A stretch of DNA of 64,000 nucleotides from Chthonomonadia bacterium (GTDB taxonomy: Bacteria; Armatimonadota; HRBIN16), in NCBI GenBank assembly GCA_013314755.1, contig JABUFA010000015.1:1-64000 (forward strand). The letters run 5' to 3'. Every line of letters begins with the position of its first letter. Within the stretch, counting starts at the first letter, position 1. The notes under the pieces were generated by a model. That model did no database searches, was not told the origin of the DNA, and saw only the letters and a list, made by a program, of their open reading frames with translations. Below are positions 3,745 to 10,260 of this stretch, piece by piece. The translations under genes and the position numbers were made by a program.

Positions 3745-4521
3745 ATGCTGGTCAAACGGATTATCCCCTGTCTGGACGTCAAGGACGGCAGGGTGGTCAA
3801 GGGCGTGAACTTCGTGAACCTGCGCGATGCGGGCGACCCGGTGGAGCTGGGTGCGCTGTACGACGCGCAGGGCGCGGACGAGCTGGTCTTTCTGGACATC
3901 ACCGCCAGCCACGAACAGCGCGACATCGTGGCGGAGATGGCGGCGCGTGTGGCGGAACAGGTGTTTATCCCCTTCACGGTGGGCGGCGGCATCCGAAGCG
4001 TGGAGGACTTTCGGCGCATCCTGAAGGCGGGGGCGGATAAAATCAGCATCAACACCGCCGCCGTACAAAACCCCGACCTCATCCGCGAGGCATCTGAACG
4101 CTTCGGCAGTCAGTGCGTGGTGGTAGCCATAGACCCGCGCCGCGTGGGAACGAAGCCCGACGGTACGCCGTACTGGGAGGTATACACGCACGGTGGGCGC
4201 AAGCCGACGGGACTGGACGCCATCGAGTGGGCACAGCGTGTGGAGGAGCTGGGGGCGGGCGAAATCCTGCTGACCAGCATGGACCGCGATGGCACGCAGA
4301 TTGGTTACGATATCGAACTGACGCGGGCGGTAGCTCAGGCGGTCAGCATCCCCGTTATCGCCTCTGGCGGGGCGGGCAAGCCCGAACACCTCTACGATGC
4401 GCTGACCGAAGGCATGGCGGACGCGGCGCTGATAGCCAGCATCGTGCATGACGGACACTACACCATCGCCGGACTGAAACGCTACCTGCATGAGCGGGGC
4501 GTGCCGGTGCGATTGACGTAG
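3745..4521 (+). CDS. hisF: Imidazole glycerol phosphate synthase cyclase subunit HisF
   Basis: 258 aa, full length. HisF uses ammonia delivered by HisH to convert PRFAR into imidazole glycerol phosphate and AICAR in histidine synthesis. Both catalytic aspartates are present: D11 in [14 protein letters not shown] and D130 in VVVAIDPRR. The phosphate-binding GGG loop (VGGGIRS) is also intact. ATG 3745 is preceded by GGAGAGAAGG. No other his genes lie in the window, so the pathway is scattered here. A TACAAT box at 3710-3715 may be the -10 element of its promoter. Confidence 0.96.
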
Positions 4522-4524
4522 CCT

Positions 4525-5796
4525 ATGGAAGCGCAGACACTTTCGCCCGGACTGTTGCACGGTATCGAGTATTCCGCCCCGCCGCTGGCGGAGCGCGTGT
4601 GGGTGGGGGTGAAGCGACACGCCATCTCGCTGATGCTGGACGAGCGCGAGGTGTATACCTTCGACCCCAGCGGCAGGCTGTGGATGGCGTTCATCGATGG
4701 TGTGAACTACAAGCGCGGGCTGGACGGGCGCATGGTGTGCAAATGGATTACCCCTGATGGGGCGCGCCGCCTGCGCGGGCTGACCACAGAGGAAGCAGAT
4801 ATCGTCCTGCGCTGGGCGCATCAGATGGCGCTGCAGGCAACTGGGGCTTATCCCGACGGGGCAGACCCCATCTGCCGGCAGTATCTGGAGAGGGCTTGCG
4901 AGTGGGATGTGCAGGCGCATCACCGTGATGCCCGGCGGTTCCTGCAAATCTACAAGCCTGTCAGCATCCTTCCCCCCGACCAGTATCTTGCGGTGGTGCT
5001 TCAGGTCACCGAGGGATGCCACTGGAACCGGTGCACCTTCTGCGATTTCTACCGCGACCGGCGTTTTGCCATCAAGACGCCCGACGAGCTGCGGGAGCAC
5101 ATTGCCAGGGTGCAGGACTACTTTGGAGACACCCTGCGCCTGCGCAACCGCATCTTCCTTGCCGATGCCAACGCGCTGGTTGCGCCGCAGAGGATACTGG
5201 TGCCGTTGCTGCAGATAGTGCGCGACACCTTCCCCATCGAGCCAACCGACCTGACGGGCGAGGAGCTGAATCGCTGGCGCGAACGCCATCCGGTGCGCTT
5301 TCAGGGGATGTACTCCTTCATCGACGCCTTCACGGGCTACCGCAAGAGCGTGCAGGAGCTGCGCGAGCTCCAGCAGCTGGGCGTGAGACGGGTGTATATC
5401 GGAGTGGAAACGGGCTGTGAGCCTCTGCTACGCTTCCTGCGCAAGCCCCAGAGCAACGAGGAGGTGCTGCAACTGGTGGACGCGCTGAAGGAGGCAGGCA
5501 TCAGCGTGGGCATCATTGTGCTGTTGGGTGCGGGAGGCGACCGCTATGCTGAAGCGCATGTGCGCGAGACGGTTGCTCTGTTGAACCGACTTCCCTGGAG
5601 CAAAGGAGACATCCTGTACTTCTCTGAACTGATAGAACCGTACGCGGGAGAATACACCCAGCTGGCGCAGGAGGCAGGTATTCGCCCCCTCACTCCCGAA
5701 CAGATGGGGAGACAGAGGCAGGAGATGGAAGGGTCACTGCACCTGCCGCCCGGGGTGCAACGTGCAACCTATGATATTCGCGAGTTCGTATACTGA
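4525..5796 (+). CDS. Radical SAM protein
   Basis: 423 aa. The 4Fe-4S cluster motif is GCHWNRCTFC (C165, C170, C173), a CX4CX2C pattern found in many COG1032-like radical SAM proteins. It is followed by DFYRDR. Residues 1-155 form an extra N-terminal domain. The GVETGCEPLL stretch later in the barrel is typical of the superfamily. The start is three bases after the hisF stop, so it is probably cotranscribed with hisF, although no link to histidine synthesis is implied. No C-terminal accessory cluster motif is visible. The reaction cannot be assigned. Confidence 0.85.
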   Translation: MEAQTLSPGLLHGIEYSAPPLAERVWVGVKRHAISLMLDEREVYTFDPSGRLWMAFIDGVNYKRGLDGRMVCKWITPDGARRLRGLTTEEADIVLRWAHQMALQATGAYPDGADPICRQYLERACEWDVQAHHRDARRFLQIYKPVSILPPDQYLAVVLQVTEGCHWNRCTFCDFYRDRRFAIKTPDELREHIARVQDYFGDTLRLRNRIFLADANALVAPQRILVPLLQIVRDTFPIEPTDLTGEELNRWRERHPVRFQGMYSFIDAFTGYRKSVQELRELQQLGVRRVYIGVETGCEPLLRFLRKPQSNEEVLQLVDALKEAGISVGIIVLLGAGGDRYAEAHVRETVALLNRLPWSKGDILYFSELIEPYAGEYTQLAQEAGIRPLTPEQMGRQRQEMEGSLHLPPGVQRATYDIREFVY

Positions 5797-5823: not shown

Positions 5824-6438
5824 ATGTTTCGTGCTTTGCCCTCTTTGCGCTTTGTGATACCGGTTGTCCTGCTGATTGCGTTGTGGTTTCTCGGCAGCCA
5901 TCTGTTCACGCAGTGGCAGTTACAACGCATCGAGCAGGCGCCGTTAAAGCGTTCGCGGGTGATGTTCATCGCCCTGCCTGCGGACATGACAGCGATTGTG
6001 GCGAATAAGACCGTGTATGTGTATCGCAAGCAGGACGTACAGGCTCGGTCGTTTGCTGCCGGTGAAGAACCCGCCATCCGTCCGGGCGCGCGTGCTATTC
6101 TGGTTGACCAGCTGCTGGAGCGCGCGCCGATTGTGCTGACCGAAGCGCAGTTTGAACCCAACGCCGAGCTGCGCACCGCGCCCGCCCCACCGCCGATGAC
6201 CGGGGACTATGGCATCGTGAAGGTGCGCCTGACCGACGAGGGGCGACGCAGGCTGTGGAAGTTTTCCGCCAGCAACGTGGGGCGCACGCTGGTCATCGCT
6301 GTGGGAGACCGCTATGTGGCGCGGGTGCAGATTGAGACCCCGCTGAACGTGACTGAGTTCGAGATACAGCCCATCTGGCACGTGGAAAGCGCACGTCTGC
6401 TTCAACAGTCGCTGAATGAGGCGAGGGCGCAGTCATGA
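5824..6438 (+). CDS. Membrane-anchored protein with SecD P1-head-like domain
   Basis: 204 aa. One N-terminal TM segment (about residues 9-27) is followed by an extracytoplasmic domain. The C-terminal half contains KVRLTDEGRRRLWKFSA followed by NVGRTLVIAVGDR and a VQIETPL strand. This order matches the P1-head subdomain of SecD/SecDF, where an L-T-x-E-G helix precedes N-V-G-x-x-L-A-I and a substrate-facing loop. No SecD membrane domain is attached. GAGTGAG precedes ATG 5824, and the stop overlaps the next gene (ATGA). The SecD resemblance is my reading of the pattern and the role is unknown. Confidence 0.6.
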   Translation: MFRALPSLRFVIPVVLLIALWFLGSHLFTQWQLQRIEQAPLKRSRVMFIALPADMTAIVANKTVYVYRKQDVQARSFAAGEEPAIRPGARAILVDQLLERAPIVLTEAQFEPNAELRTAPAPPPMTGDYGIVKVRLTDEGRRRLWKFSASNVGRTLVIAVGDRYVARVQIETPLNVTEFEIQPIWHVESARLLQQSLNEARAQS

Positions 6439-6857
6439 TATGGCTGGCTCTTCTGGCGGCGGTCTTCTGGGGAACCTCTCCCATTCTGGAAAAGCGCGCG
6501 CTGGGTTCGGTGGCGCCGGTGGCTGCGGTATTGCTGCGAAGCATCACCGTCGCAGGGATAGCGGTAATCTACCTGCTATGGAACCACGGCTCCCAGACGG
6601 CGCGTCAGATGGGGCGCTGGCAGGATGCCCTGCTGGTGATGCTGGCAGGGTTGATTTCGGCGGGAGTGGGGCAGGTGCTGTACTTCGCGGCACTGCGTGG
6701 TGGCAAAACTTCCATTGTGGTGCCCCTCGCCGCCTGTTATCCGCTGGTGACGGTGCTGCTGTCGGTATTCGTGCTGGGCGAGCGGGTGCGCTGGTGGCAC
6801 ATGGTGGGTGTGCTATTGATACTGCTGGGTATCGTGCTTATCAGCAGACATGAGTAA
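6435..6857 (+). CDS. Single-domain EamA (drug/metabolite transporter) protein
   Basis: 140 aa and very hydrophobic, with about five TM helices. This is the length of one EamA repeat rather than the usual two. WLALLAAVFWGTSPILEKRA at the start and the LGERVRWWH...LILLGI end are standard for the family. Small-multidrug-resistance-like half transporters act as dimers, and this one probably does too. It overlaps the upstream gene by four bases and the downstream lipoprotein by eight, so the three form a translationally coupled set. Substrate unknown. Confidence 0.82.
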   Translation: MIWLALLAAVFWGTSPILEKRALGSVAPVAAVLLRSITVAGIAVIYLLWNHGSQTARQMGRWQDALLVMLAGLISAGVGQVLYFAALRGGKTSIVVPLAACYPLVTVLLSVFVLGERVRWWHMVGVLLILLGIVLISRHE

Positions 6858-7386
6858 TGGCACGCTGTACCGCGCAGGGGTTATTGGATTGCTCCTCGCT
6901 GTGGGTTGGCTGGTGGGGTGCGGCAGGGAGCGTCACGCGGTAAAGCCGCCCCCTTCCGAGCGACTACTCTTCTCCTTCGAGCGCAGAACCATGCTTCCGC
7001 TGTACGAAGGCACTGCCTCCCGCGCGATTGTGTCTGAGCACGCCACACACGGAAAACATGCCCTGCGTTTGAAACTCTCTCCTAAACGCGAGACCATTAT
7101 CCTGCCAATGGGCGGGTTTCCGTCCGACTGGCGCGGCTGGCGCACCCTGAAGGTGGACGTCTATCGCGACGGGGGACCTCTCACGGTGAATCTGCGCATT
7201 TCGGACGCACACGGCAAACGACACTGGATATGGAGCACCCGCATCTCGCCCGGAGCAAACACGCTGGCATACGATATCCCATCCCTGCAGGGCAGGGTAG
7301 ACCTTTCAGCGGTTGCCGAGCTGATGTGGTATGCCGAACAGCCGGAAGGGGTGATTTATCTGGACAACGTTCGCCTGAGCCGGTAA
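6850..7386 (+). CDS. Lipoprotein with beta-sandwich (carbohydrate-binding-like) domain
   Basis: 178 aa. The N-terminus is a signal peptide ending in the lipobox LVGC, with the lipidated cysteine at residue 24. The mature part is a single beta-rich domain beginning LLFSFE, with HGKHALRLKL and ending VIYLDNVRLSR. This is the layout of carbohydrate-binding or jelly-roll domains, in which the final strand carries an LDNV motif. It is the last gene of the coupled run 5824-7386. No catalytic residues are apparent, so I take it to be a binding or structural surface protein. Confidence 0.75.
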   Translation: MSNGTLYRAGVIGLLLAVGWLVGCGRERHAVKPPPSERLLFSFERRTMLPLYEGTASRAIVSEHATHGKHALRLKLSPKRETIILPMGGFPSDWRGWRTLKVDVYRDGGPLTVNLRISDAHGKRHWIWSTRISPGANTLAYDIPSLQGRVDLSAVAELMWYAEQPEGVIYLDNVRLSR

Positions 7387-9639: not shown

Positions 9640-10191
9640 TCACCTGCCGTATTTGCCCATCAGCTGTCCCTCTGCCAACACATGCCCCTCCATCGCTTTC
9701 AGCAGTTGCGCCTTGCTGCTGCCTGCGGGCAGGTCAAGCATGGTGTCCAGCGCATACAGTTTGAAGAAATAGCGATGCGCCTTGCCCGGCGGGGGGCAGG
9801 GACCGCCGTAGCCAATCTTGCGAAAGTCGTTTGTGCCCTGACGTGCGCCGCTGGGAAGCTCCTTATCAGGTGGCACCGCTTCGGGCAGGCTGCGCGTGTC
9901 AGCGGGCAGATTGAACAGCACCCAGTGCACCCATGTGCCCATCGGCGCGTCGGGGTCATCGCAGATGAGGGCAAAGCTTTTGGCACCCTCCGGCACGTTG
10001 TCCCATTCTAACGGGGGCGATACATCGGCACCGTCGCAGGTATGCTTTCTGGGTATGGTGCCTCCCTCGGTGAAAGCGCTACTGGTCAGGCGGATGTCCA
10101 TCTTGCCACCTCCTCCTTGCAGAGATGGTCCCTTGCCCTGGCACGAAACCAGCAGCAGGGCGAGAAGGGTTAGACTGGCAATTGCACGCAT
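9640..10191 (-). CDS. YbhB/YbcL (PEBP, Raf kinase inhibitor-like) lipoprotein
   Basis: 183 aa. The phosphatidylethanolamine-binding protein fold is shown by [15 protein letters not shown] and by [20 protein letters not shown], the two ligand-pocket motifs. The N-terminus is a lipoprotein signal, with lipobox LLVSC just before QGKGPS. I start at ATG 10191 because GAGGTG lies seven bases upstream; a TTG at 10206 overlaps that site. Bacterial members are usually periplasmic or cytoplasmic and poorly defined. It lies nine bases upstream of the WbsX-like gene on the same strand, so the two are probably cotranscribed. Confidence 0.86.
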
Positions 10192-10260
10192 GGCAGAACA
10201 CCTCAATGGTCAGCTTCGTCTTGAGGGGAACAGTCTCCTGCTCGACGCTGAGGTTTACCT

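Follow-up and report, generated by a model that had tools for sequence, protein, structure and literature searches.

The window analyzed here, a stretch of 64,000 nucleotides from a genome that comprises 88 contigs and 3,945,940 bases, raises the question of what the P1 head of SecD might do when it stands apart from the SecD membrane part. The gene concerned encodes a protein of 204 amino acids (5824-6438, + strand), which we refer to as P1H. Hydropathy gave a single hydrophobic stretch, from residue 10 to about residue 30 (5851-5913, +), which corresponds to a helix of residues 8-36 in a low-confidence model and which we infer to be an uncleaved signal anchor; by the Pfam boundaries, the P1-head-like domain occupies residues 103-198 (6130-6417, +). 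The preliminary description had read the protein in the same way, as a single-TM protein with a SecD P1 head and without the SecD membrane part, and hydropathy, Pfam, and profile comparisons bear this out. The same strand carries, ahead of P1H, hisF (3745-4521, +; TIGR00735, E = 1.9e-118) and a radical SAM gene (4525-5796, +; PF04055, E = 2.1e-15) that stops 27 bp before P1H. Downstream, the stop codon of P1H (TGA) shares bases with the ATG of a one-repeat EamA gene (6435-6857, +) in an ATGA at 6435-6438, and the EamA stop codon (6855-6857) lies behind the ATG (6850) of a lipoprotein gene (6850-7386, +), an overlap of 8 bases. These three open reading frames and their overlaps had been described before and were all recovered. 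Genes in the neighborhood were called with a codon-usage script instead of a standard gene finder, and other families were surveyed with six-frame open reading frames and profiles. Among named relatives, "Bacterium HR16" isolate HRbin16 and an Armatimonadetes bacterium have proteins with 87% identity to P1H. Elsewhere in the window, on the opposite strand, there is a lipoprotein-like open reading frame (9640-10206, -) that we take by eye to resemble a PEBP/YbhB-type protein.

Taken alone, P1H is a weak match to the Pfam model of the SecD head (PF22599; 23.2 bits, E = 6.8e-5, below the curated 27-bit cut-off), with positions 13-108 of 114 aligned to residues 103-198, and the SecD head is the one Pfam family that it matches. 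A PDB search with the P1H sequence alone had no SecD among its matches, and blastp of P1H against the SecDF of its own genome was not significant (E = 1.1). Single members from other families of the phylum scored 28.1 bits (f8, passing the cut-off) and 26.4 bits (f16, just below it), and a single f17 member gave no PF22599 match at E <= 0.01. With relatives added to the profile, however, the case for homology is strong. A 30-member alignment of the P1H family (A2, with rows picked from 49 loci) found the P1 domain of Thermus thermophilus SecDF in the PDB (3aqo, E = 1.9e-6; 3aqp, E = 1.6e-5), followed by 5xan and 5xam at E of ~0.1, SecD or SecDF thus providing the top four of the eight PDB matches. 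Comparison by hhalign with four SecDF heads from the same phylum (A3) yielded a probability of 98.5% (E = 3.7e-15) for A2 and of 99.0% (E = 8.5e-18) for a 14-row subset of it (A4), and 26 of the 30 family members match PF22599 at E <= 0.01. In the hhalign alignments the S-A-P motif of SecDF heads reads A-R-V in the P1H of the window. Homology of the P1H head to the SecD P1 head is well supported by these sequence comparisons.

The earlier identification of the domain as a SecD P1 head therefore stands by profile and by profile-profile comparison, and its support from the fold is weak. AlphaFold models computed with seven sequences (the six others being 85-89% identical) had a mean pLDDT of 44.9 for full-length P1H and of 51.6 for residues 46-204. 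When the weak model of residues 46-204 was submitted to Foldseek, no match was obtained at E <= 0.001; SecDF chains took ranks 1-8 (E 0.1 to 0.56) and a holo-translocon chain took rank 9, with E values of 0.1 to 0.63 and TM scores of 0.22-0.31 across these nine ranks.

When the A2 profile was run against 291 genomes of the phylum, matches were obtained at E <= 0.001 in 214 genomes and, by hand count, at E <= 1e-30 in 144, 30 of which had supplied the sequences of the profile. The strong matches are distributed over nine families (f1, 10; f8, 11; f9, 16; f10, 1; f15, 7; f16, 80; f17, 17; f18, 1; f19, 1), and as these families comprise ~154 genomes, five of which were placed in their families by handle order and not by a printed row, ~94% of their genomes have a strong match. 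Families beyond the nine gave no strong match among the 291 genomes. Members have in common the TM segment, a short motif that follows it, and the head. The protein of the window has 204 residues, the f9 rows have 324-336, and those of f15, f16, and f18 have 364-389; the longer proteins carry their additional residues between the motif and the head. A scan of viral contigs with the family confirmed no relative. The P1 head is itself a well known domain with a Pfam model, and no description of a free-standing P1 head was found in open-licence PMC texts.

The matches in the remaining 70 genomes have E values from 2.1e-16 to 6.9e-4, and the five that were inspected proved to be SecDF proteins in three cases (L136-L138) and free-standing forms of another kind in two (L134 and L135). 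One of these, in an f32 genome (G225, L134:804-1382), is a free-standing head of 192 residues with a PF22599 score of 70.1 bits and a signal-peptide-like N terminus. The other, in an f27 genome (G209, L135:625-1419), has 264 residues, a PF22599 score of 32.1 bits, which passes the cut-off, and likewise a signal-peptide-like N terminus; the stretch that precedes its head resembles the SecD P1 base by eye. In a FastTree tree of heads, built on ~100 columns, a single branch unites the 30 P1H sequences and separates them from four SecDF heads and two further free-standing heads. This branch is supported at only 0.583, and we draw no conclusion from it; in the same weak tree the L134 head is nearer to the SecDF heads than the P1H family is.

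To see in what company P1H is found elsewhere, we surveyed 76 chosen loci, 75 of them with P1H (L100, a fragmentary contig, lacks it), plus two more loci. The f16 survey covered 45 loci out of the 80 genomes with a strong match. In all 45, P1H is directly followed by related secreted proteins or lipoproteins, of which there are two in 4 loci, three in 18, and four in 23, and behind these a RodA/FtsW-type gene (PF01098, E = 1.2e-85 for the one copy tested) is present in 44, the exception being L162, which ends with the contig. A membrane gene annotated as "putative ABC exporter" (PF16962) precedes P1H in 32 of the 45 loci, and a divergent gene that we labeled MoxR-like by eye occurs in 24. Examples of the cluster, often with the ABC exporter, then P1H, two to four secreted proteins or lipoproteins, and the RodA-type gene, are found at L160:6056-9926 and L144:3814-9968. 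The secreted proteins or lipoproteins also follow P1H in all four f15 loci and in the single f18 locus, without a RodA gene directly after them. They form four classes that are mutually related (hhalign 96.8-98.9% with the signal region removed); a simple pattern finds a lipobox in 107 of 167 of these proteins, and of four that were tested one matches DUF3108_like, whereas for the other three Pfam gave nothing at E <= 0.01.

Other families have other neighbors. A class-V aminotransferase gene (PF00266) precedes P1H in 6/6 f9 loci (L146, L147, L148, L197, L198, and L199), with a gene that is FabI-like by eye ahead of it in five of them, and in 2/5 f8 loci (L112 and L113), whereas two other f8 loci have a gene that looks UvrA-like by eye behind P1H. 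All five f17 loci have an MqnD-like gene (again a label given by eye) behind P1H, at a distance of 955 bases in one case, and the order in the f18 locus is ABC ATPase, ABC exporter, aminotransferase, P1H, and secreted proteins or lipoproteins. In the genus of the window, the PF16962 exporter is encoded in 7 of 10 genomes and lies away from P1H in the four loci inspected. A profile of 12 f16 lipoproteins gave weak matches in 5 of the 10 genomes (E 1.7e-4 to 6.6e-3), all of them at model positions 1-65 of 232, which is the signal-peptide end, and DUF3108_like is found in none of the 10.

Behind P1H in the window come the EamA and lipoprotein genes. The EamA protein has 140 amino acids, a single PF00892 repeat over residues 2-137 (E = 1.7e-25), and five separate hydrophobic peaks, and it is an ordinary member of the single-repeat EamA/DMT proteins, similar short open frames occurring elsewhere in the phylum. 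The lipoprotein has a lipobox-like Cys-24 as judged from the sequence pattern, and this cysteine is kept in six of seven alignment rows, the six being those that reach it. Its codon-usage score of 13 is low for the window, and it gave no Pfam match at E <= 1. In many families of the phylum its domain recurs near the N terminus of open frames of ~600-1500 amino acids, among them one with Glyco_hydro_42, and the label of a "binding-type domain" given to it in the preliminary description seems a fair one. The relationship would be to carbohydrate-binding-type modules of glycosidase-like proteins, with the difference that the domain sits inside large open reading frames there and forms a stand-alone lipoprotein in the window. 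Homology of this protein with the f16 lipoproteins was considered and rejected (hhalign probability <=2.0), and the f16 profile matches no open reading frame of the window.

Comparison of ten congeneric genomes (the source genome and nine others) bears on whether these genes belong together. P1H is present in all ten, with hisF upstream in 10/10 and the radical SAM gene between the two in eight. The EamA gene is intact in two, the source genome and G186, in the latter with the gene order P1H-EamA-lipoprotein of the window. The two genomes without the radical SAM gene at this place, G180 and G185, have EamA relics with internal deletions (L098:6922-7020 and L104:1476-1572), in which the first 64-65 bases (blastn E = 5e-20 and 8e-12) almost abut the last 15-28 bases. 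In the other six, the position of EamA is taken by a Uma2-type gene (PF05685, one copy tested), which in G181 crosses a contig end, its remainder opening the lipoprotein-bearing contig. The lipoprotein is found in eight of the ten; it is absent from G179 and G187 and cut by a contig end in G182. Median dN/dS values within the genus are 0.021 for hisF (45 pairs), 0.058 for P1H (45 pairs), 0.060 for Uma2 (10 pairs), 0.105 for radical SAM (28 pairs), 0.164 for EamA (one pair only), and 0.174 for the lipoprotein (21 pairs). P1H is under strong purifying selection in this genus, and P1H, EamA, and the lipoprotein all behave like genes under constraint.

In the preliminary description, P1H, EamA, and the lipoprotein were proposed to make up a single unit for export or binding in the envelope, and the gene overlaps in the window, the identical order in G186, and the former presence of EamA at this position in G180 and G185 are what such a unit would lead one to expect. 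The intact trio, however, occurs in just two of the ten congeners, and tblastn against 68 P1H-family loci of other families detected EamA in none and the lipoprotein as one weak partial match (L179, E = 2.5e-4), so that the three genes are together in 0/68 loci outside the genus and are scattered among relatives. As P1H is retained in 10/10 congeners while the other two vary, it is independent of both; EamA and the lipoprotein look like optional neighbors of P1H and not like partners, and a three-gene unit is now highly improbable. We give still less credence to the idea that P1H is what remains, decaying and without function, of a SecD duplicate. The sub-threshold Pfam score and the loss of the S-A-P motif in the P1H of the window would fit such decay, but both the low dN/dS over 45 pairs and the strong family matches in 144 genomes of nine families argue against it, and we regard a remnant as scarcely conceivable.

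Two further explanations accept P1H as functional and differ in what the head would be for. It might have been repurposed as an ordinary protein-protein scaffold of the envelope, with no part in Sec export; an elongation complex linked to RodA would be one example. The RodA/FtsW-type gene that lies behind P1H and the secreted proteins or lipoproteins in 44 of 45 f16 loci points in this direction; no RodA-type gene, however, was seen near P1H in the surveyed f1, f8, f9, f10, f17, f18, and f19 loci or in the window, the four f15 loci have none directly behind the lipoproteins, and P1H is retained where the RodA link is absent, which makes a scaffold of this kind rather unlikely. Alternatively, P1H may tune SecDF, competing with the SecDF head or extending it through PpiD/SurA-like chaperones, and would then be a regulator or a chaperone dock and not a holder of substrates. 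A complete SecDF in the same genome is consistent with this, as are the statements that the SecD head touches PpiD (PMC11470409) and that it is predicted to bind SurA, which is placed on the P1 head in AlphaFold models (PMC9987972). Against it, no PpiD/SurA-like chaperone gene was seen beside P1H on inspection of the neighborhoods, and we consider tuning of SecDF distinctly less probable than a scaffold.

The reading that we tentatively prefer is that P1H is a module for binding polypeptides, tethered to the membrane, which works beside SecDF and assists folding or export at a late stage. P1H retains the head and an anchor without the parts that serve ion flow, and a tethered binding or docking site is the simplest inference from this. 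The head would face the outside of the inner membrane and, like the SecD head, might bind polypeptides that are emerging or have just been exported, or else the chaperones to which these are passed: in PMC11470409 the SecD head is described as carrying a substrate-binding pocket, and its motion by ion flow is a proposal made there and in PMC6028853. In this way P1H could help envelope proteins in the late steps of translocation, in folding, or in being handed over, and, having no motor part, would act as a passive holdase or docking site and not as a pulling machine. The clusters in f15, f16, and f18 are a pointer to exported lipoproteins, the tandem secreted proteins or lipoproteins directly behind P1H being its likely clients or partners there. 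Several observations count against this reading: in the genus of the window P1H has hisF and the radical SAM gene as its steady neighbors, neither of which suggests export, it has no link to f16-type lipoproteins or, in the four genomes inspected, to the ABC exporter, the structure models are of low confidence, the S-A-P motif is altered in the P1H of the window, and P1H alone matches neither a SecD in the PDB nor, significantly, the SecDF of its own genome. A bolder and more doubtful version would have P1H as a core family of a large clade of Armatimonadota in which the detached, tethered SecD head has become a dedicated exoplasmic polypeptide-binding factor beside SecDF. In f16 it would be tied genetically to tandem secreted proteins or lipoproteins, to a RodA-type gene, and in many loci to an ABC exporter, as a branch not described so far that connects the late steps of export with the building of the envelope. 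In the current view of SecDF, the P1 head does the pulling and ion flow through the membrane part supplies the drive, and a widely kept head with an anchor alone would show that binding by the head is useful in vivo, separating its binding role from its motor role. The f16 cluster names candidate clients of P1H and offers a system for testing them in a phylum that has been little studied.

How far P1H departs from known systems can be stated part by part. It aligns with the P1 head of SecD/SecDF (PF22599; 3aqo, 3aqp, and 5xan) over 108-109 columns, which begin shortly ahead of the V-L-T motif and reach the last helix. The P1 base (PF21760, SecD_1st), the GG motif (PF07549, Sec_GG), and the membrane part (PF02355, SecD_SecF_C), in contrast, are each found in 0/30 members of the P1H family at E <= 0.01, and P1H scores 17.6 bits against the secD model TIGR01129, whose cut-off is 244.4 bits. 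Whereas SecD crosses the membrane many times, 34 of the 41 P1H-family proteins scored have one hydrophobic segment, five have none, and two have two. The source genome also encodes an intact, separate SecDF of 826-828 amino acids with all of these parts, and because this SecDF is complete, P1H in this genome is an addition to SecDF and not a replacement for it. Parvulin and TPR domains, which are features of PpiD and YfgM, are absent from P1H, whose only Pfam match is the SecD head. The comparison with PpiD/YfgM and other anchored folding factors at the Sec exit (PMC11470409) is one of working principle only: P1H would likewise be anchored in the membrane and stand on the exit side.
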